From positions 1 to 42,487 of the IMG/VR virus record IMGVR_UViG_3300032238_000349: 42,487 nt of DNA; one strand, given 5' to 3'. This DNA is from a virus. The position numbers and the translations under genes are program-made. Of this stretch, positions 22,333-31,261 are shown one piece after another. Position 1 is the stretch's first letter, and each line of letters opens with the position of its first letter. Below the pieces are notes generated by a model, which worked only from the letters and a program-made list of their open reading frames with translations, made no database searches and was not told where the DNA came from.

Positions 22333-22339
22333 ATAAATA
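22333..22339 (+). promoter_or_regulatory. T4-late-type promoter ATAAATA
   Basis: ATAAATA 58 bases before ATG 22398, in a 76-base intergenic gap. It matches T4 late TATAAATA in six of eight positions plus the flanking A. It would drive the run of genes with capsid-targeting-like starts. Confidence 0.5.
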
Positions 22340-22397: not shown

Positions 22398-22748
22398 ATG
22401 AAAATACAAGATTTATTTGAGAATGTACCAAACACTATATCTGATGAGGCGCCTGGCAAACTGCCATTTGATCTAGCAGATGATCTAATGTTTTTTATGC
22501 GTAACGATGACGACTTTTATCGTAAACACTATTATCCGCATGTTGTAAAATGCATTGAACACATTAAAACAGGTAAAAATTTAAGCCCTAGAGTATTTGA
22601 ACCTATGGTTAAACATGCCTACGAATGTTACACACAAAAATTTCCAATTAGAGAACTTCCAGAGAGTTTAGAAGAAGATGTCTGTGAAGATATTTGTCAT
22701 AAACTTAGAACAGAAGAAAATAAACATATTAAAAACGATATCTACTAA
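22398..22748 (+). CDS. Unknown protein with capsid-targeting-like N-terminus
   Basis: 116 residues. It starts MKIQDLFEN, with LFE at 6-8 fitting the phi-x-E cleavage rule of T4 prohead protease gp21. The rest is helical (DLADDLMFFMRNDDDFYRKH; HVVKCIEHIKTGKN) with several cysteines and acidic end (EEDVCEDICHKL). No known fold. It overlaps the ligase-like gene by one base (TAATG). With the next genes it forms the putative internal-protein run, but the localization is inference. Confidence 0.55.
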   Translation: MKIQDLFENVPNTISDEAPGKLPFDLADDLMFFMRNDDDFYRKHYYPHVVKCIEHIKTGKNLSPRVFEPMVKHAYECYTQKFPIRELPESLEEDVCEDICHKLRTEENKHIKNDIY

Positions 22749-23896
22749 TGCTACTTAGAGAACTTTTTGAAGACGTTTCGACGGCTACTAAAAAATTAGG
22801 TCGTGCTTTTAATCACTTAGAAGACCTAGTGTTTTTCTACGGTTCTAGCGGAACAATAGAAGCACTTGAACACTTAAAAGAAATTAATACTCAAGAAGGT
22901 TCTAGCACTATTCGTATGAAGTGGGACGGCAATCCTCAAATATATTGGGGAAGAGAAAAAGCAGGTGGGCCATTAGTTCTTGCAGGTCACAATGGTTGGT
23001 CAAAGAAAGCTATGACAACTAGTCCTGAAGAGATTAAAGACTTTATAGCTAACAAATCTGGAAATCCTAAGACACCCGAAGAAAAACAAGCTCGAGAAGT
23101 ATTTGCAAATCAATTTGCAAACTTGTATCCGTTGTTTGATAAAGCAACTCCAAAAGATTTTGTTGGCTTTGTTTATGCAGATGGGTTATTTTTAAGTAGA
23201 CCAAAACTAGACGCTAATGGCGTCTATAATTTTTATCCTAATCCCAAGTCAAAAACTGGTTACCACGTAATGGCATCTAGTGAATTAGGACAACGTATTG
23301 CTAACGCACAAGTTATGGTAGTAGGACATGCTTACTTTCCAGAGTTTGGCATGGATGACAGCGATCAACAACCATTAGATGACTTTGACCCGTTTAATGC
23401 TAACCCACAATTAATTGTGTTAGGTCCGATATATAATGTGTCCACGGTAGCAGTTGATACAAAAGAAATTGATAGTGTAGAACAATACTTGCAAAAAAAT
23501 GCAGTAGCCATTGACAGCTTCTTAGAAGGAGCACCTGGACTAAGTGATTTAAAGAATATCATCTATACCTATGTCAATCAAACTGCTAAAGCTAAACAAC
23601 TAGATAATCTAAGCCCACAACATTTCGTAAGTTGGTTACAGACTAGTAAAGTTAGTGCAAGCAAACAACAAAAGATTGTAGAACTTGCTCGTCAACAGAT
23701 AACAGCATTACCCGCAATCTTTGAACTAGTAAAACGTATTCAAAATATGAAGGATGCAGTTATTGATCAAATCGAAGCTGGTCCTAAAGCAGAAATATGG
23801 GATAGTCACGGCGAAGGTCGTGTACGTTACGCCGGTCCTGAAAAACAACATGGTAACGTAAAACTAGTACCACGCAAACGTTGGACACCAGCATGA
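22748..23896 (+). CDS. Ligase/nucleotidyltransferase-like protein with targeting-like N-terminus
   Basis: 382 residues, begins MLLRELFEDV (LFE at 6-8). Residues 58-61 are KWDG inside STIRMKWDGNPQIYWGRE, which resembles motif I (KxDG, the adenylated lysine) of covalent nucleotidyltransferases such as DNA and RNA ligases. Near the end, GEGRVRY (355-361) resembles motif IV (EGxV) and VKLVPRK (371-377) motif V. It resembles a conserved family of aquatic T4-like phages that I know as DUF6267-like. Substrate unknown; T4 RNA ligases are not similar enough to name. Ligase activity is inference from spacing and motifs. Confidence 0.5.
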   Translation: MLLRELFEDVSTATKKLGRAFNHLEDLVFFYGSSGTIEALEHLKEINTQEGSSTIRMKWDGNPQIYWGREKAGGPLVLAGHNGWSKKAMTTSPEEIKDFIANKSGNPKTPEEKQAREVFANQFANLYPLFDKATPKDFVGFVYADGLFLSRPKLDANGVYNFYPNPKSKTGYHVMASSELGQRIANAQVMVVGHAYFPEFGMDDSDQQPLDDFDPFNANPQLIVLGPIYNVSTVAVDTKEIDSVEQYLQKNAVAIDSFLEGAPGLSDLKNIIYTYVNQTAKAKQLDNLSPQHFVSWLQTSKVSASKQQKIVELARQQITALPAIFELVKRIQNMKDAVIDQIEAGPKAEIWDSHGEGRVRYAGPEKQHGNVKLVPRKRWTPA

Positions 23897-25035
23897 AACT
23901 AAGAGAACTTTTTGAAAGTAAAAATTCAGTAGCAATTATATTTGGCAGGTTTAATCCTCCACATAAAGGTCACAAGGCAGCTTGGCAAATTGCTAGTAAG
24001 CATCCGCATTGGTATGTTGGTACTAATCAAAGTACACAAGGCCCTAAAGACCCATTACCCTTTGATGTAAAAATTCAAGCAATGACAGCTATTTGGCCGG
24101 AAGTTCAAGAACATATTGTTGCTGAACAAAGCTGGTTAACATTAGCTAGTAAGGTGTATCAAGACCATGGGGAAGTTACATTATTTTGTCTAACAGACGA
24201 AGATTGGGTCACTAAAACTATTGTTCAATACAATGGCAAAGAAGGTACGCACGGATTTTATAATTTCCCATCAATCAAACAACAAGCAACCCCACGTTTA
24301 AGTAGTGCTACAGCATTACGTGATGCAGTTATCAAAGACGACAGAGAAGCATTTAGTCATGCTGCCGGTGTTCCAGCTGATACAGAAGTAGCAGGACACC
24401 CTTTCTTTGATCTAGTAGCACACTACTTAATGCCGTATCAAAATGCTCCTAAGAAAGTAGCAAAGAAAAAAGTTAAAGAGCCTGTTGAAGGTATGGCGCC
24501 GCCAAGTGCTCCTAACTTTAGTACAGACGGTGGACATCATACACTAGAAACAAAACGTATGAGTGCTCAAGTTAAGCTACAACGTGCTTGGGATCGTGAA
24601 CGTGCCAAGTCAGATGCTAGTCGCGAGCGTATGCGTCGTGAATTAGAATTAATTGCTGGCAAGAAGCCGCAAGAAGAACCAAAGAAAGATGTCACCGAGT
24701 TTGCAAGAAGTGGAGATGACGGCCGTGAGTTTATGTCATGGCAAGAATTTTTAACTATAGTAACTCCTACCATGCGTAAGTGGGGGTTTCATGCAGAAAA
24801 TAAAAATCCAGAAATGATGTATTCAAGACGTGGAAGAATGGAAGATGAACATTATTTTATAATATTAGATCCACAAGATGACATGGTGCATTATAGTTTT
24901 GGTACTGTAGAAGACGGTGAACCTATGATGCACGAGCAAAATTTTGTTAGTATGGATAAGCACGGTGCTAAAGTGTTATTAGATACAGCAAACGAAGGTT
25001 ATAGTTTAAGTGATATAGCCCAAGAAAAAAGATGA
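23893..25035 (+). CDS. NadM-like adenylyl/cytidylyltransferase with targeting-like N-terminus
   Basis: 380 residues from ATG 23893 (ATGA overlap). It starts MKLRELFESK (LFE at 6-8). Residues 13-27 SVAIIFGRFNPPHKGH carry the HxGH nucleotide-binding motif H24-H27; the second family motif is SSATALRDAV from Ser137. These fit nucleotidyltransferases of the NMN/cytidylyl type that transfer AMP or CMP from a nucleotide triphosphate. Residues about 210-260 are basic/helical (RAWDRERAKSDASRERMRRE), and a C-terminal domain from about 270 (FMSWQEFLTIVTPTMRKWGF) is unknown. Likely substrate: NMN or a similar nucleotide. Confidence 0.75.
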   Translation: MKLRELFESKNSVAIIFGRFNPPHKGHKAAWQIASKHPHWYVGTNQSTQGPKDPLPFDVKIQAMTAIWPEVQEHIVAEQSWLTLASKVYQDHGEVTLFCLTDEDWVTKTIVQYNGKEGTHGFYNFPSIKQQATPRLSSATALRDAVIKDDREAFSHAAGVPADTEVAGHPFFDLVAHYLMPYQNAPKKVAKKKVKEPVEGMAPPSAPNFSTDGGHHTLETKRMSAQVKLQRAWDRERAKSDASRERMRRELELIAGKKPQEEPKKDVTEFARSGDDGREFMSWQEFLTIVTPTMRKWGFHAENKNPEMMYSRRGRMEDEHYFIILDPQDDMVHYSFGTVEDGEPMMHEQNFVSMDKHGAKVLLDTANEGYSLSDIAQEKR

Positions 25036-25319
25036 AACAATATAGGATAACATCGCAAAATTTAAATCAAGATAGCAATGAAGATTGTTATCTAGATCCT
25101 AGCGACCCTATACATGAATTAAAAGCTATACAGTATCTAGCAGGATTAGGCTCAGCCGCTAGACTACAAGAATACAAAGGTATGCAAGGTAGTAATATAA
25201 GTGCTACTGGCAATACTAAAGGCGAATTAATGAAACAACACAACATTAAACCAGGCACTCCAGAATGGTTTAAATTATGGTTTAGTAAACCTTATCTTAC
25301 AGGAGAAAAACCTGTATGA
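25032..25319 (+). CDS. Small hypothetical protein
   Basis: 95 residues, ATGA overlaps on both sides. Acidic, soluble: ITSQNLNQDSNEDCYLDPSD, then LKAIQYLAGLGSAARLQEYK. The end has KPGTPEWFKLWFSKPYLTGE, a 'GTPEWF.LWF' phrase that I have seen in small phage proteins. It does not have the MKxxELxE-type start of its neighbours. No function known. Confidence 0.5.
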   Translation: MKQYRITSQNLNQDSNEDCYLDPSDPIHELKAIQYLAGLGSAARLQEYKGMQGSNISATGNTKGELMKQHNIKPGTPEWFKLWFSKPYLTGEKPV

Positions 25320-25849
25320 GAGCAAACGAATTTACTCGTAAAGATAACGAAGATTATCACCCAAACGATACACCGCGCGGTCCAGAGTTTAAACCTACAA
25401 TGCCAGCAGGTACTGTTAGAGTAGATGTTAGTGATGTTTATGATTGGTATAAGCTAGGAAAAAATATTGCTAATTTAAAACGTGCTAAGGCCAGTGACTT
25501 TGGTAAAGGTCCTCCTAGTACTATTATGTCTTTTGGTAGTGAACCGGAAGAACACAAATATATTGCGGCTTTGAAGAAACTAGGACTTACAACAACAGAC
25601 ATTGATCCGTTAGACCCTAATCAACCTAAGGACATGCCTCGTCAATCAGTTGATCCAACATACAATGTAGGTGAAAACTTTGCAGATGGGCGTCATCCTG
25701 AAGATAAAGGTGATAGTGCTAGACACGGTATTCCTAAAGGTGCAAGTATAGCACAGCTAAAAAAAATACGTTCTAGCGACAGCGCAAGTCCACGTAAAAA
25801 ACAGCTAGCTCATTGGCAGATAAATATGAGACAAGGTAAAAAGAAATGA
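25316..25849 (+). CDS. Hypothetical basic protein
   Basis: 177 residues, coupled on both sides by ATGA overlaps. The start MRANEFTRKDNEDYHPNDTP is related to but not clearly matching the targeting-like pattern. The middle has a folded-looking block (AGTVRVDVSDVYDWYKLGKN; PPSTIMSFGSEPEEHKYIAA), and the C-terminus is basic (LKKIRSSDSASPRKKQLAHW ... RQGKKK). Such basic tails suit a DNA-associated internal head protein, but that is inference. Confidence 0.5.
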   Translation: MRANEFTRKDNEDYHPNDTPRGPEFKPTMPAGTVRVDVSDVYDWYKLGKNIANLKRAKASDFGKGPPSTIMSFGSEPEEHKYIAALKKLGLTTTDIDPLDPNQPKDMPRQSVDPTYNVGENFADGRHPEDKGDSARHGIPKGASIAQLKKIRSSDSASPRKKQLAHWQINMRQGKKK

Positions 25850-26235
25850 AAGTCTACGAAATTTTATCAGAAAACGAGAGCGGTGCTACTGGTGGCGGTA
25901 AGGGTAAACCTGGCAAATTGCATCCTCACCAAAAAGATGCTATTAAAGGGATGACTACCTATCCAGAATTACCAGGTTGGTATTATGATATGTATAGATT
26001 TGGTGTACATATGGCTGGAAGTCCAGACAATCAGCCAATGGCACAAAAAAGCCCTACAGCTAACCAGTTGTCAACTTTAGCATACACGGATGCAGAAGAA
26101 AAGATTATTAACAAAAGTAAACGAGATATGGGGTTAAAGGGTAAAACTTTGACTTCAAACCGCAGTGAGGAACCTGGAGAGACAAATACTACTAGCCCGG
26201 TTCCAAAGCGTAAAAAGAACAAATACGGTGTATAA
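25846..26235 (+). CDS. Internal-protein candidate, paralogue A
   Basis: 129 residues. Starts MKVYEILSENESG, with LSE at 7-9 a possible prohead protease site. It shares its core (TTYPELPGWYYDMYRFGVHM versus TTYPSLNQ..YMNYRYGVAL) and its last ten residues PKRKKNKYGV with the next gene, so the two are tandem paralogues. Basic, Gly/Lys-rich near the start. No enzyme motif. Probably a DNA-binding or core head protein; inference. Confidence 0.55.
   Translation: MKVYEILSENESGATGGGKGKPGKLHPHQKDAIKGMTTYPELPGWYYDMYRFGVHMAGSPDNQPMAQKSPTANQLSTLAYTDAEEKIINKSKRDMGLKGKTLTSNRSEEPGETNTTSPVPKRKKNKYGV
26200..26235 (+). repeat. 36-base direct repeat, copy 1 (C-terminal PKRKKNKYGV)
   Basis: The last 36 bases of the gene match 26571-26606 in 35 of 36 positions. 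The near identity, including codons, points to a recent duplication or gene conversion of the C-terminal tag. Confidence 0.8.
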
Positions 26236-26237
26236 CT

Positions 26238-26606
26238 ATGAAAGTACGTGAAATTATTGCAGAAGGTGGAACAAAAAAAATCCGCAAAAGTCACAAAAAT
26301 TCAATGATGAATATTACAACATATCCTAGCCTAAATCAAAGTACAGGGTCTGCATATATGAATTATAGATACGGAGTTGCTCTAGCAGGAGCTCCTGAAA
26401 TACCTATGCCTGCTGACAATTACATTGGTGGGGATCCTTTACTTGCCACTTATACACAAGAAGAAGCAGAAATGATGGATTATGCGGCAAAACAAGTAGG
26501 CGCAGGTAAAGGACAAAAATGGAGCGATAACAAGAGTAAAGAACTTGATAGCGTGAATAAAAATAGTGCCGTTCCAAAGCGTAAAAAGAACAAATACGGA
26601 GTATAA
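26238..26606 (+). CDS. Internal-protein candidate, paralogue B
   Basis: 122 residues. Starts MKVREIIAEGG: IAE at 7-9 is the same cleavage triplet as in T4 MKTYQEFIAE, the capsid-targeting sequence of internal proteins. The core AYMNYRYGVALAGAPEIPMP and the C-terminal PKRKKNKYGV match paralogue A. No ribosome site is obvious and the gene begins 3 bases after the previous stop, so it likely relies on coupling. Strongest single match to the T4 signal in the run. Confidence 0.6.
   Translation: MKVREIIAEGGTKKIRKSHKNSMMNITTYPSLNQSTGSAYMNYRYGVALAGAPEIPMPADNYIGGDPLLATYTQEEAEMMDYAAKQVGAGKGQKWSDNKSKELDSVNKNSAVPKRKKNKYGV
26571..26606 (+). repeat. 36-base direct repeat, copy 2 (C-terminal PKRKKNKYGV)
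   Basis: Second copy of the repeat at 26200-26235, one mismatch (T to A in the Gly codon). Confidence 0.8.
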
Positions 26607-26607
26607 G

Positions 26608-26865
26608 ATGAAGGTTTATGAAATTTTAGAAACAGCTTCTGCAGGCGCAACAAGCTCCGCTAATATAGGAACTGTTATTAGCCCCCAAGTTAAACTAGGA
26701 TCAGCACGTGGTAAAAAGAGTTATACTGGCAGTCCAAGTACAGGATCAGGCACAAAAGCGCCACCGCAACCCAAGGTTATTCAGCCTAAAAAGAAAGATG
26801 GCACTGCTGTAAACGGACTAGATATGAAGGGCGCAAACTTATTCGGCGCACCCATAAAACGCTAA
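26608..26865 (+). CDS. Small internal-protein candidate
   Basis: 85 residues from ATG 26608; the frame runs further upstream but would overlap paralogue B, and the MKVYEILETA start fits its neighbours (ILE at 6-8). Low-complexity, Ser/Gly/Lys/Pro-rich (SARGKKSYTGSPSTGSGTKA), ending with a short ordered tail (AVNGLDMKGANLFGAPIKR). No cysteine or membrane segment. The stop overlaps the late-type promoter at 26862. Function unknown. Confidence 0.55.
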   Translation: MKVYEILETASAGATSSANIGTVISPQVKLGSARGKKSYTGSPSTGSGTKAPPQPKVIQPKKKDGTAVNGLDMKGANLFGAPIKR

Positions 26866-26868
26866 ATA
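26862..26868 (+). promoter_or_regulatory. T4-late-type promoter CTAAATA
   Basis: CTAAATA 18 bases before ATG 26887, overlapping the previous stop exactly as at 2982. Probably starts late transcription of the Lys-rich protein and the genes after it. Confidence 0.55.
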
Positions 26869-26886
26869 TAACTAACACTGGAGATT

Positions 26887-28002
26887 ATGATGGATTTAAT
26901 GCAACAACAAAACGATGATCACGAAGCTAGCATGGCTCGTGCTGATTTGTTCAAATGCGCCCAATACTCATTCAAATTATTTAAAATGATACACGATGGA
27001 CAACAACTAGAAGGTTGGGTCCAAGCAAAGATTACTAAAGCCGCTGACTACATTGCCAGCGTATATCACTATATGGAATACGAAATGAAGTTTAGTGAGT
27101 ACGGTGAGCAGATTGAAAACAGCGATATGTACAGCGAAAGCCAACGTGCCGCTCTTAAAAACATGCTTACAGAAGCTAAGTCTAAAATGAAAGAGCTAAC
27201 AAAAGCTCAGGCTAAAAAGATTAAAGAAGCTAACCTTCTAAGTCCTCCAGACGGTGCTACAGCACCTCCTCCTAAAGGAAAAGACGGAAAGTATCCTTTT
27301 GTAGTTTCCGGTCCTAATAAAGGAAAACGTTGGAGTCCACAAACTCCAGGTCCAACAAATCCTGCTATGAAGGAAGCTACTAAAGCTAAGAAAGATTACG
27401 ACGGTGATGGTGAAATTGAATCTCCAAAAGACGAAGTTTGGGGATCACGTGCCAAGGCTGCTAAGAAAGCAGGTAAACCTTTCAAAGAAAATATGAAAGT
27501 TGGCGATACTAAAAAGACTCGCACTGGCGAATTAACAAAAACTAAAACTGGCGTAGTTCATAAGCGCACAGATTATAAAGATGACGAGCACGGTGAAGCA
27601 CCGAGCACAGTAAAACAAAAGTCAGCGGCTGAAAAGAAAGCTGATAAAAGTAATGACATTAAACTGCCTAAGCACAGTGGCAACACCTGGGGTATGAAAG
27701 GTGGCGAGAAGTTTGGTAAAAAAACAGAAAGTGCTAAACCAGATTTTTTAGATATGGACAAAGATGGTGACAAAAAAGAGCCAATGAAGAAAGCCGTTAA
27801 AGACAAAAAAGTAGACGAAGCAGGAAAACCAAGCGCAGGTATGAGTGCTGCCGCTAAATCAGCATTAGCTAAAAAAGCAAGTGCAGGTAAAGACATTGGT
27901 AAGCCAGGTAAGAGTTTTGATAAAGTAGCTAAAGCCGCAGGTGGTGGTGAGAAAGGCAAGAAGATTGCCGCTGCCGCTATGTGGAAAAACGCTGCCAAAT
28001 AA
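26887..28002 (+). CDS. Lys-rich head/core protein candidate with EF-hand-like loops
   Basis: 371 residues, highly basic. N-terminal helical domain (RADLFKCAQYSFKLFKMIHD, WVQAKITKAADYIASVYHYM) is of a type conserved in aquatic T4-like phages. A linker PPPKGKDGKYPFVVSGPNKG follows. DYDGDGEIESPKDE and DMDKDGDKKEP resemble EF-hand/dockerin Ca-binding loops (DxDxDG). The C-terminal third is Lys/Ala/Gly-rich, ending GEKGKKIAAAAMWKNAAK. It looks like a scaffold/core or internal head protein. Start ATG 26887; the second Met (26890) is possible. Ribosome site CTGGAGATT. Confidence 0.55.
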   Translation: MMDLMQQQNDDHEASMARADLFKCAQYSFKLFKMIHDGQQLEGWVQAKITKAADYIASVYHYMEYEMKFSEYGEQIENSDMYSESQRAALKNMLTEAKSKMKELTKAQAKKIKEANLLSPPDGATAPPPKGKDGKYPFVVSGPNKGKRWSPQTPGPTNPAMKEATKAKKDYDGDGEIESPKDEVWGSRAKAAKKAGKPFKENMKVGDTKKTRTGELTKTKTGVVHKRTDYKDDEHGEAPSTVKQKSAAEKKADKSNDIKLPKHSGNTWGMKGGEKFGKKTESAKPDFLDMDKDGDKKEPMKKAVKDKKVDEAGKPSAGMSAAAKSALAKKASAGKDIGKPGKSFDKVAKAAGGGEKGKKIAAAAMWKNAAK

Positions 28003-28012
28003 GGACTGAACA

Positions 28013-28759
28013 ATGGACATGAAAAAAATCCTACAAGCATTGGACGGAGCAAGCTCTACGCCAGTTCAAGGTTCTAATGACATGGCAAAATTTTTGTCCA
28101 TTGTAACTGAAGGCAAAGACACAAAAACCAATCGTCTAACTAGTGCCGAGCAAATTGCTGTTCAGCACTACACTGACCCAGAATCTAAAGTAACTACTAG
28201 TCCAGTATTGAACAAATCACAAAACGAACATATGATTAAAAAATATGTTGATATGGTTTTAGCAGAACGTGCTGAAGAATTAGAAGCTCAAAAAACTGCT
28301 ATTAAAGAACGTGCCGCTCGTGTTGTTCAAAACATGAAAGAAAATTCTGTTTCTGAAATTAGCGGTGCGCTAAGAGGACGTTATGCACATAAGGCAAGAC
28401 TAAAACAAGCCGGTGCTGAAATGGATAAGTTCTTTAACAGAGATAATCCTGAAAGAGTTGCAAGTGCAGATCGTGAAATTGCTAAACGTGAAAAAGGTTT
28501 AGGCATGGTCAAGACTCGTACAGACAAATGGCTAGCTAGTGAAAAAGAAAAAGCCGCACAAGCCGCTATTGTTCAAAAACAGCAAGATAAAGAAAATCTT
28601 CCTCAGTTAAAAGCAAAGTTAGCACAATTAAAATCTAAATTTGATCCTAATTTTGAATATAGTGACGATCATACTTTTTGGAGTAATCAAAAAGAACTTC
28701 AAGGTCGTATCCATGCTTTACAAAGACAAATACATGATATCGGCGAAGGTGACGAGTAA
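28013..28759 (+). CDS. Hypothetical helical, possibly core protein
   Basis: 248 residues, mostly helical and charged: MDMKKILQALDGASS, then a long coil (MVLAERAEELEAQKTAIKER; KAAQAAIVQKQQDKENLPQL; KELQGRIHALQRQIHDIGEG). KFLSIVTEGKD contains VTE at 31-33, a possible cleavage site for a prohead protease. Ribosome site AAGGACTG precedes ATG 28013. Ends coupled to the Dps-like gene (TAATG). Long helices and context in the run suggest a prohead core role, but this is not proven. Confidence 0.5.
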   Translation: MDMKKILQALDGASSTPVQGSNDMAKFLSIVTEGKDTKTNRLTSAEQIAVQHYTDPESKVTTSPVLNKSQNEHMIKKYVDMVLAERAEELEAQKTAIKERAARVVQNMKENSVSEISGALRGRYAHKARLKQAGAEMDKFFNRDNPERVASADREIAKREKGLGMVKTRTDKWLASEKEKAAQAAIVQKQQDKENLPQLKAKLAQLKSKFDPNFEYSDDHTFWSNQKELQGRIHALQRQIHDIGEGDE

Positions 28760-29193
28760 TGGACGAGTTAAAACAAGCATTAAAAGTTGCACACGCAAGT
28801 AACTTTAGTTTTTATCTAAAAACTCACGGCTTCCATTGGAATGTTGAAGGTCCAAATTTTCCTCAGTTACATGAATTGTTTGCAAACATCTACGAAGATG
28901 TTTACGGAGTAGTAGATCGTTACGCAGAAGAAATTCGTGCTTTACAAAGCTATGCTCCTGCAAGTTTAGGACGTTTTCAAAATCTAAGTCAAATACAAGA
29001 TCAAGTTGAAATTGTAGATGCTCGTCAAATGTTACAAATTCTTCACGACGATAATCTACTAATGTTAGATATTATCAAACAAACATATGATATAGCAGAA
29101 CAAGCTGGCGCACATGGATTAAGTAATTTCTTAGCGGAACGCCAAGACATGCATAAGAAATGGGGATGGCAGTTAAGAGCAACATTAAAATAA
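28759..29193 (+). CDS. dps: Dps-like ferritin-fold protein
   Basis: 144 residues, a four-helix ferritin-type protein. KTHGFHWNVEGPNFPQLHEL (21-40) is the Dps signature. In E. coli Dps the ferroxidase ligands are spaced H-x11-H-x3-D-x10-D-x3-E; here these are H26, H38, A42, D53, E57, so the first Asp is replaced by Ala. The end, NFLAERQDMHKKWGWQLRAT, also matches. Dps binds and protects DNA and stores iron with H2O2. It lacks the long basic N-tail of E. coli Dps and any targeting-like start. Coupled to the helical protein upstream. Phage-coded Dps is unusual. Confidence 0.85.
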   Translation: MDELKQALKVAHASNFSFYLKTHGFHWNVEGPNFPQLHELFANIYEDVYGVVDRYAEEIRALQSYAPASLGRFQNLSQIQDQVEIVDARQMLQILHDDNLLMLDIIKQTYDIAEQAGAHGLSNFLAERQDMHKKWGWQLRATLK

Positions 29194-29298
29194 CACACCT
29201 TAGGACCGTTACGTTTACGGTGTGTAGGGCGGCTACTGCCCATAGGAAACGATTCGCTACCGGGAACTATGAAGTGAGCACAGTTATTGGGGATTGAA
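29194..29298 (+). other. Structured 105-base intergenic leader
   Basis: Most genes here touch or overlap; this gap is 105 bases. It holds an outer stem ACACACC (29193-29199) / GGTGTGT (29219-29225), then GGGC(29227-29230)-GGCTACT-GCCC(29238-29241), then weaker pairs. The next gene's ribosome site GGGGATTG lies at its end. It might be a leader structure or small RNA; I see no tRNA or known riboswitch. Confidence 0.4.
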
Positions 29299-30420
29299 AT
29301 GGATTTAAGAAACTTGATGAAAAAGTTAGATACTATTGCTTCTAGACAATATTTGACAGAAGCAATAACTATGGCTGATGTACAAACTGCTGTAGGCCAA
29401 GAAAAAGACGAACAAAAACGTGCAGGCATTTTAAATGACTTAGCATGGAAAAACAATTTACCAGGGTTATATGATCCAGTAAGTGGTTATTTTGTTAGAA
29501 AACAAAGCCAGCCAGTTTCCGGTGAAGGTAGTTATAGCATCTCAGCAACAGCTAGAGAAGCTGATACCCAGGCATTAGCTAAAATGGGGTTAGTGCCAAG
29601 TACTGCTAAAACATCTGCACTAGGTGGACTAGTAGGCGTAGGAAAGAATAGTTGGGGCGGATTAGATAAAGAGCAAAGTGCGGCAAATGATCAAGCATCA
29701 ACAGATATTAAAAATCAAAGTGCTAAAGTGTACGGCGATCAAGCTAGTGCTGAATATATCAAACCAAGATTAGAAAAACTAAATGCCTTAGTTGCTAAAA
29801 TTAGTAGCGCAGGTGCACCATCAACTGTAAGCAGTGGAGCGGCTACACAACCTGCAAAAGAACCAGAGCAATGGGAAAAAGATTCAGCTAGGCAAGCAGA
29901 GTGGCTAAAAAGTTTAAAAGTTCAACCAACAAAACTTAAAGCGCCTATTCAGAATTCAAGTTATGAAAACATAGCTAAATCATTAATTGAAAGTTTTGGT
30001 TACCAATTAGACGAGAAAGTTACGCTAGGCACAGGCCCAGTTGTACAAAAAGATGTTGGTAACGGTATGACTATTAGTGTTGGTCAATATCAAAGTGAAG
30101 TTGCTGAAATCAGAAAACTCATGGGCGAACTAGGTGATGTTAATGATCCTGCTGTTGAAAAGGCACTACAAGCCGCACAAGATGCATTAGATAATTTAGA
30201 AAAACAAGGCAAAGCTGAACAACCAGGCGGCGGTACACAAACAACAACATCTACTACACCTACAGCTAAAAAAGATCCGGCGGCTATAGACAGTCCAGAG
30301 ACACAAAAGAAAATTGCAAGATTTAAAGAACTATTAACTAAAGCTGGCGGTAGTGGTTTTGAAAAACGCACTCCAGCTGAAATACAAGCTAGTGCAGATT
30401 TGAAGAAGGCAGGAATATAA
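29299..30420 (+). CDS. Internal-protein candidate with C-terminal tag
   Basis: 373 residues from ATG 29299; an upstream TTG at 29287 is rejected because GGGGATTG is a ribosome site before 29299. The start has MDLRNLMKKLDTIASRQYLT then E at 21, giving LTE before an Ala, a possible prohead protease site. Low-complexity Thr/Gln/Ala stretches (around GGGTQTTTSTTPTAKK) alternate with helical blocks. The last 19 residues EKRTPAEIQASADLKKAGI match the end of the next protein. No enzyme motif. Confidence 0.5.
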   Translation: MDLRNLMKKLDTIASRQYLTEAITMADVQTAVGQEKDEQKRAGILNDLAWKNNLPGLYDPVSGYFVRKQSQPVSGEGSYSISATAREADTQALAKMGLVPSTAKTSALGGLVGVGKNSWGGLDKEQSAANDQASTDIKNQSAKVYGDQASAEYIKPRLEKLNALVAKISSAGAPSTVSSGAATQPAKEPEQWEKDSARQAEWLKSLKVQPTKLKAPIQNSSYENIAKSLIESFGYQLDEKVTLGTGPVVQKDVGNGMTISVGQYQSEVAEIRKLMGELGDVNDPAVEKALQAAQDALDNLEKQGKAEQPGGGTQTTTSTTPTAKKDPAAIDSPETQKKIARFKELLTKAGGSGFEKRTPAEIQASADLKKAGI

Positions 30421-30421
30421 T

Positions 30422-31261
30422 ATGAACTTTTATACAGACCCATTACTAGACAAACTAAGATTAATTGAATCTGGACAACCTCTTAATGAAGGACTAAGCC
30501 CTGAAGAAAAGCAAGAACTAGATAGTCTTTACAAAGAGCTTGCAGGTTGGGGTGGCGTAGATTCAGAAATGGATACACTAATTTCTGCTTATAAAAAACT
30601 ACCAGCGGGTGGTGATACAACTACTACTACTCCGGATGCAAAGAAAAAAATTATGGCTCCTGTTGATCCGGGAACTGTAGAATTACAAAAATGGTTAATT
30701 TCTAAAGGCTACAACTTAGGTCCGGATGGTGCAGACGGTCGTTGGGGTAAAAATACACAAAAAGGTATAGATGCATTTTGGGCTGATTGGCAAGCTAAAA
30801 AAATTAGCAAGCCTGATCAAGATCAATACCAAAAACTACTAGGTGCCGCTAAAGATACTGAATGGACTAGATATTGGTTTAGTAAGCAAAAAGCTGCCGG
30901 CGCCGCAACTAGTACAGCGGCTGGTGCGGCAACACAGCCAGCGGCTGGTGCAACAGGATCTGGCGCTATTCCAGCTGACGCCAATAAGAAAGAACCATAT
31001 TGGGTCAATGGTACTCGATATGAATGGGGTACTAGAGGTTGGAAGGCTACTGCACAACCTGGCGATGCGTTTCAATGGAACTCTACAAGAGCTCGCTCAA
31101 TGACTAAATTTACTGGTCCGGATTCTGCATATCAAACCGGTGGGACAGCTACAGCGGCTGCTCCTGCTCCAAGCGGTGCGGCGACTCAGCCAAGCAGTAC
31201 TGAAAAGCGTACTCCGGCTGAAATTAAAGCTAGTCAAGATTTAAAGAAAGCAGGCGTATAA
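30422..31261 (+). CDS. Peptidoglycan-binding-domain internal-protein candidate
   Basis: 279 residues, 1 base after the preceding stop. The start has MNFYTDPLLDKLRLIESGQP then LNE, two candidate phi-x-E sites. Residues about 79-115 are a PG_binding_1-type fold (VELQKWLISKGYNLGPDGAD then GRWGKNTQKGIDAF). Such domains bind peptidoglycan and are found in lysins and tail or internal proteins. After Ala/Thr-rich linkers, a WVNGTRYEWGTRGWK block follows and the C-terminus EKRTPAEIKASQDLKKAGV repeats the previous protein's end. It could help wall penetration. Confidence 0.6.
   Translation: MNFYTDPLLDKLRLIESGQPLNEGLSPEEKQELDSLYKELAGWGGVDSEMDTLISAYKKLPAGGDTTTTTPDAKKKIMAPVDPGTVELQKWLISKGYNLGPDGADGRWGKNTQKGIDAFWADWQAKKISKPDQDQYQKLLGAAKDTEWTRYWFSKQKAAGAATSTAAGAATQPAAGATGSGAIPADANKKEPYWVNGTRYEWGTRGWKATAQPGDAFQWNSTRARSMTKFTGPDSAYQTGGTATAAAPAPSGAATQPSSTEKRTPAEIKASQDLKKAGV

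Follow-up and report, generated by a model that had tools for sequence, protein, structure and literature searches.

A run of genes with putative capsid-targeting starts points to an enlarged set of internal head proteins in a jumbo T4-like phage

The 42,487 bases analysed here (the window) are the entire linear virus record IMGVR_UViG_3300032238_000349, which is part of the larger genome of a jumbo T4-like phage, and contain a run of 13 genes between positions 22,398 and 31,261. We propose, with a probability of about 0.85, that this run encodes an enlarged set of internal head proteins, enzymes included, which are targeted to the capsid and processed by a protease of the gp21 type. The proposal is based on a short N-terminal peptide (the tag) that is present and conserved in the sequences, is spread as a module over related phages, and matches both the cleavage rule of T4 gp21 and the site at the mature start of the capsid protein, as well as on gp21 itself, which relatives encode. 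The DNA polymerase of the window has its best matches in jumbo T4-like phages, led by Sinorhizobium phage Phosso (49%) and Agrobacterium phage Atu_ph07 (46%) and followed by Rak2-like phages, and a nucleotide-level search for close phages returned no match to the window. The run is flanked by tail-region, ClpA-like and replication genes.

Six genes of the run, all on the plus strand, start with closely similar peptides of eight or nine residues, as an earlier note on this sequence had claimed: MKIQDLFE/ (22398..22421; a slash marks the predicted cut), MLLRELFE/ (22748..22771), MKLRELFE/ (23893..23916), MKVYEILSE/ (25846..25872), MKVREIIAE/ (26238..26264) and MKVYEILE/ (26608..26631). The further claim that no such start exists elsewhere in the window also held, a strict form of the pattern retrieving only these six ATG-started open reading frames when both strands were scanned. 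They represent six of the 54 genes of the window and all lie within the one 13-gene run. Shuffling residues 2-12 of every protein in 5000 trials gave an expectation of 0.11 tagged genes on average and a maximum of 3, and at the rate seen for internal Met in related proteins (28/7527) the probability of finding at least six among 54 is 6e-8. The strict pattern was written after the six sequences were known; relatives therefore provide the independent and fair test. Of 680 gene starts on three long contigs from related phages, 16 match it, compared with 4 among 3555 internal Met (odds ratio 21, p = 4e-10).

A wider sample, consisting of 142 related loci, revealed the tag at 249 of 1724 starts versus 28 of 7527 internal Met. 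Once proteins were clustered without their first 12 residues, 77 of 438 clusters carried it, or 76 after removal of false matches. Clustering used sequence similarity at 60% coverage, and some of the clusters, such as those of the transferase, are mutually related; by inspection, the truly unrelated tagged kinds are fewer than 76, yet dozens. The consensus is M-[KR]-[LIA]-x(2-3)-[LI]-x-E. Although the pattern also admitted Val, Phe, Met and Tyr, 63 of the 76 tagged families have Leu or Ile as the third residue before the predicted cut (P3), in agreement with the L/I-x-E cleavage rule of T4 gp21 (PMC9026906). A gp21 gene was found in 6 of 14 long related contigs and in all six (6/6) cultured relatives. 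Some loci have starts of the form MKLFQM(V/I)QE, which we did not accept as tags since they correspond to an internal Met in the family of gene 26887 (FKLFKMIHDGQ).

The adenylyl/cytidylyl-transferase-like protein of gene 23893-25035 offers the closest view of the tag. Among the 42 distinct N-termini of its family, the Glu at position 8 is invariant (42/42), and Phe7, Leu3, Leu6 and Arg4 are kept in 41, 40, 38 and 38, respectively; positions 9-12 form a variable linker (2.3-3.1 bits of entropy), after which the conserved fold begins. The AlphaFold2 model of the DUF6267 protein encoded by the preceding gene (22748-23896; Pfam DUF6267, E=9e-15) has a mean predicted local distance difference test score (pLDDT) of 90.6, residues 1-17 alone falling below 50. 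Taken together, the invariant Glu, the variable linker and the unstructured DUF6267 start make the tag look like a separate, unfolded and selected element. The same transferase fold is tagged in phages Melnitz (MKKFSEIIE), S-WAM1 (MRFRQFIIE), DLP_6 (MKNIKDILE), Syn33 (MKKFSAFLTE) and S-SM1, and untagged, starting directly at the fold, in GAP32 (MKKTCIMVYGRFNP) and S-H9-1; the tag is therefore a separable addition. In related locus L059, DUF6267 and transferase are fused and the junction, KDLTE/SVGICYGRWNPPH, is a site without Met, and in locus L013 the sequence EMRAHQFVKE/G joins the transferase to a 26238-like protein, and an in-frame restart is also possible there. The closest homologues of the 116-residue protein of gene 22398-22748, to which no function was assigned, have starts that fit the alignment pattern M[KR]I[KQR][DE]L[FLV]E (MKIQDLFEN, MRIRELLEN, MRIKELLEG and MRIRDLVEN, for example), and distant members of that family are untagged (e.g., MKIFELYN). 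In loci L002 (8757-10004), L105 and L097, a WSQKYKNSINCSNPKGFSQKAHCAGRKK module stands between the tag and DUF6267, and after it comes another candidate site (VNEAE).

A link to the capsid itself comes from the sixth tagged gene. The major capsid protein of relatives reads KYLAE or KYLSE and then S-A-S/T-A-G-A-T-S-A-G-N (KYL[AS]E/SASAGATSAGN); by homology with T4 gp23, it would be cut after this Glu. The 85-residue protein of gene 26608 reads MKVYEILE/TASAGATSSAN, its predicted mature start thus copying that of the capsid protein. The SAxAGATS peptide also occurs internally in other proteins with Glu ahead of it (MAE/SASAGATS, VSE/SATAGATS, GMNE/TATAGATS and others), the sole exception being a 1640-residue protein without such a site.

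Longer propeptides, of two types that likewise end at phi-x-E (phi being a hydrophobic residue), appear to constitute a second class. The earlier note overlooked the 33-residue propeptide of gene 28013-28759 (MDMKKILQALDG...DMAKFLSIVTE/, 28013..28111, plus strand), the internal LTE/A of gene 26887-28002 (E96; 27166..27174, plus strand) and a degenerate tag that lacks the Glu site, MRANEFTRK, in gene 25316 (25316..25849, plus strand), whose homologues retain MRAKEFIVE or MRAQEFIVE. The 33-residue start (MDMKKILQALDG...DMKKFLSIVxE/) is found on approximately 21 proteins of 179 to 554 residues with differing downstream sequences; the module ends at [IV]xE in nearly all of them, and the Glu is where several BLAST matches end. 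The site of 26887 is kept as LTEA, LMEA or LQEA in its closest subfamily, and LLE[SG] lies slightly downstream in another. Candidate sites that the earlier note had pointed out in two further genes are indeed present. Gene 29299-30420, whose listed form (29287-30420) starts at an upstream TTG, encodes a predicted 21-residue propeptide ending QYLTE/A (29299..29361, plus strand); starts in its family vary between 14 and 21 residues, and every homologue found keeps the site, as LTE/A, LLE/A, LAE/A, LSE/A or LNE/A. Gene 30422-31261 has a candidate propeptide with LIE/S (E16) and LNE/G (E23) at 30422..30490 (plus strand). Counting the latter, candidate sites occur in up to 10 of the 13 genes of the run.

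Evidence from virions is available for two relatives of these proteins or of this phage. Mass spectrometry of purified virions of cyanophage S-SM1 identified 41 proteins, including the putative cytidylyltransferase T4-GC190; the accessible text of that 2010 paper lists this protein without mention there of a targeting peptide (PMC3037559). The corresponding protein, SSM1_190, starts MKKFSAFLNE/AERS and its gene adjoins a DUF6267 gene. This distant cyanophage shares with the window the enzyme family, the order DUF6267 then transferase, and an N-terminal tag on the transferase, but its DUF6267 neighbour has no visible tag. In Atu_ph07, a jumbo T4-like outgroup, 131 virion proteins were reported, 29 of them from coding sequences (CDS) 31-76, two of these 29 having been predicted as structural before (PMC6102473). 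Twelve of the 20 tagged Atu_ph07 genes fall inside this CDS 31-76 block (p = 9e-10), gp53 to gp63 consecutively among them; numbering followed protein accessions anchored at gp2 (ClpX) and gp70 (primase-helicase), and the block limits are approximate. Like the window, Atu_ph07 has an array of tagged genes, gp53-gp62 plus gp63 and gp43 (M[KR]W..L[TN]E), but its tags have Trp at position 3 and the genes mostly belong to a single family of paralogues sharing a YRG[MI] motif. These YRG[MI] paralogues (L245, 13485-24593, corresponding to gp53-gp63) recall ADP-ribosyltransferases such as T4 Alt, and one is fused to a zeta-toxin/kinase domain; they gave no ADP-ribosyltransferase match in Pfam, and PHROGs lists them as of unknown function.

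The principle is already known from T4, in which the internal proteins IPI, IPII and IPIII and the Alt propeptide likewise place a short N-terminal phi-x-E propeptide on otherwise unrelated proteins in the presence of gp21, and in which fusions to the capsid-targeting sequence (CTS) package foreign proteins (PMC9026906). By this model, precursors would be synthesized late, and each would carry either a CTS (M[KR][LIA]xx[LI]xE, about 8-9 residues) or one of the longer propeptides, which span 14-33 residues. The CTS or propeptide would bind the prohead scaffold or core, a gp21-type prohead protease would cut after the Glu (L/I-x-E/) and free the mature cargo, and this cargo would stay in the head alongside the DNA, to be ejected into the host at infection. 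All steps beyond synthesis are taken from T4. The predicted cargo comprises an enzyme resembling nicotinate mononucleotide (NaMN) or nicotinamide mononucleotide (NMN) adenylyltransferases, the DUF6267 protein with ligase-like motifs, the capsid-start mimic 26608 and several small proteins. T4 has a handful of such proteins (IPI-III and Alt) whereas the window has six short tags and two to three longer propeptides in a 9-kb run and, unlike in T4, about 76 families are tagged over the clade, several kinds of enzymes among them.

Several points weigh against capsid targeting of the run. That this phage binds its cargo to the scaffold, cleaves it, packages it and injects it is our inference by analogy. 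No gp21 was found in the 42-kb window, the record being a fragment, and within the run the Dps-like and 25032 proteins have no tag. The overlap of tags and virion proteins in Atu_ph07 holds at the level of the cluster rather than protein by protein. Moreover, a loose motif (phi-x-E anywhere close to the start) was rejected as a predictor of virion proteins for lack of enrichment in phage CBB, where, in a comparison that drew on 55 listed virion proteins, it was present in 11 of 37 virion versus 24 of 96 non-virion proteins (p = 0.66). The tag motif is also short, and the strict pattern is near chance in CBB (3/510) and absent from Melnitz (0/180), where tags are of a variant form, because the consensus drifts between clades; as the strict tag is hardly present in CBB, this phage neither supports nor refutes the proposal. 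Set against these points, the capsid-targeting idea of the earlier note is supported by gp21 in relatives, by a tag on many families with an unshared linker and by the P3 preference, and is further backed by the capsid site in 26608, the S-SM1 virion enzyme and the Atu_ph07 cluster overlap.

Tags could instead mark proteins of the scaffold or assembly core that are cleaved and discarded rather than delivered. The T4 core proteins gp22 and gp67 likewise have L/I-x-E cleavage sites (PMC9026906), the gp22-like protein of relatives starts MLEALKSLFE/N, and the run includes several proteins that are small, repetitive or rich in Lys and Gly. Nevertheless, core proteins are cut many times while the run enzymes have a single N-terminal site, with the conserved fold intact behind it, the S-SM1 homologue is retained in mature virions, and the differences in gene content among phages fit cargo better than core. 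We consequently regard this explanation as unlikely.

Less likely still is that the common start serves translation initiation or expression through its codon context, or is a shared docking peptide that is never cut. The peptide does sit at the extreme N-terminus, with Lys or Arg codons first that may help initiation, but it is the amino acids that are conserved, with an invariant Glu and Leu or Ile at P3. Sites are moreover kept internally without Met, as in KDLTE/S of L059 and before SASAGATS, and the long propeptides vary in length while the site stays. Coincidence has the lowest probability: phi-x-E peptides are common, loose phi-x-E starts occurring in about 19% of CBB genes (98/510), and local duplication could account for some of the six starts, 25846 and 26238 being paralogous. 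Yet in unselected contigs the strict pattern is about 20-fold commoner at starts than at internal Met, which excludes equal frequency, about 76 families are tagged, and the Glu is invariant in the transferase family.

Two of the tagged proteins of the run are putative enzymes. The predicted mature transferase (23917..25032, plus strand), a HIGH-superfamily nucleotidyltransferase with a C-terminal extension, matches NaMN adenylyltransferase 3e27 (E=1.7e-5) and NadM 2qjo (2e-5) in Foldseek and a PHROG cytidyltransferase (E=2e-15). The superfamily motifs HKGH (HxGH, within GRFNPPHKGH) and LSSATALR ((I/L)SSxxxR-type) are found in the expected fold. The fold therefore suggests an NaMN/NMN adenylyltransferase-like protein. 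The predicted mature DUF6267 domain (22772..23893, plus strand) displays the series KWDG, YADG, EGxV and, towards the C-terminus, VKLVPRK in the motif order of ATP-dependent ligases, and its K58, W59, D60, G61, E356, G357, V359 and K372 are invariant in 30 homologues. Neither sequence nor fold searches of solved structures gave a significant match, the best Foldseek match being T4 RNA ligase 1 at E=0.15; judging from its motifs, DUF6267 may be nucleotidyltransferase-like. Adjoining the transferase or fused with it (L059, probably phrog_455), it possibly represents a new branch of covalent nucleotidyltransferases. Folds of this kind would allow one to guess at an early role of the cargo in the supply of nicotinamide adenine dinucleotide (NAD+) or in RNA repair. 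Tagged proteins elsewhere in the clade contain phage lysozyme plus peptidoglycan-binding, cell-wall hydrolase, pterin dehydratase, NTP transferase, ParB-like and DUF6321 domains.

Genes 25846-26235 and 26238-26606 encode paralogues of 129 and 122 residues with the common C-terminus KRKKNKYGV; homologues of 26238 start MRAKEFIVE/Q or MKVFEIISE/Q, and the near-invariant C-terminus of the group (AKPK[KR]NKYGV) also belongs to the C-terminal domain of fused transferases. An untagged Dps/ferritin-like gene (28759..29193, plus strand; PF00210 E=3e-17, PHROG DNA-binding protein E=7e-28) lies within the run and keeps a similar position in relatives. The peptidoglycan-binding match of 30422-31261 is weak (PF01471 E=0.0012, below its cut-off); related domains occur on tagged proteins elsewhere, the site in 30422 being a candidate. 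A 22-residue C-terminus (TPAEI.AS.DLKKAG[VI]) is common to 29299-30420 and 30422-31261, which otherwise have little similarity; it was rejected as a second signal, as it was found only in these two window proteins and in none of the related loci. PADLOC gave a single weak, partial match on the run proteins.

The earlier note had also placed nearly all run genes behind late-type TAAATA motifs. This did not hold: the motif lies within 80 bp upstream of 3 of the 13 run genes (22398, 25846 and 26887), at 22334..22339 (plus strand, 64 bp upstream of the run), 25821 and 26863. Over the whole window, TAAATA occurs within 50 bp upstream of 7 of 53 genes versus 1.0 expected, an enrichment that makes a late-type promoter plausible, and it is probably the late promoter core of this phage. 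It frequently reads CTAAATA and stands 24-36 bp ahead of the gene start; TATAAATA was not found in the window. The overlapping genes of the run may form about three transcription units.

Other phages are known or predicted to deliver proteins with their DNA. The giant phages phiKZ and SPN3US resemble this clade in having many protease-processed, ejected head proteins (PMC5694885, PMC7411985), but they belong to a separate group with its own prohead protease, and we set them beside the clade by description and not by sequence. For polyvalent proteins and head-packaged NAD-ADP-ribose effectors, too, enzymes have been predicted to travel in the head and to enter the host along with the DNA (PMC9503650, PMC5512222); the basis there is fusion to head proteins or the neighbourhood of the genes, whereas a putatively cleavable targeting peptide marks the window's putative cargo. 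What is new here is the scale, the tag-marked enzyme cargo, the reuse of the capsid site, the second class of propeptides and the link between a so far unexplained virion enzyme and a targeting peptide. No prior description was found in the literature searched, whose coverage left out most subscription journals.

We tentatively suggest, at somewhat less than even odds, that these starts are a general protein-packaging code across T4-superfamily phages, in which a gene that gains an 8-9-residue start or a longer propeptide becomes head cargo. The present clade would use it for dozens of proteins, bringing NAD-metabolism-like and ligase-like enzymes into the cell at time zero, where they would possibly restore NAD+ or repair RNA before phage gene expression. 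Phage head cargo is normally identified phage by phage via mass spectrometry. If the start reliably marks cargo, injected proteins would become readable from genomes, those of uncultured jumbo phages included, and the tags would offer a ready-made means to load proteins into phage heads. Such a code would also account for the nucleotidyltransferase in cyanophage virions, and would point to the first enzymes that these phages use on their hosts, which are candidate anti-defence and takeover proteins.

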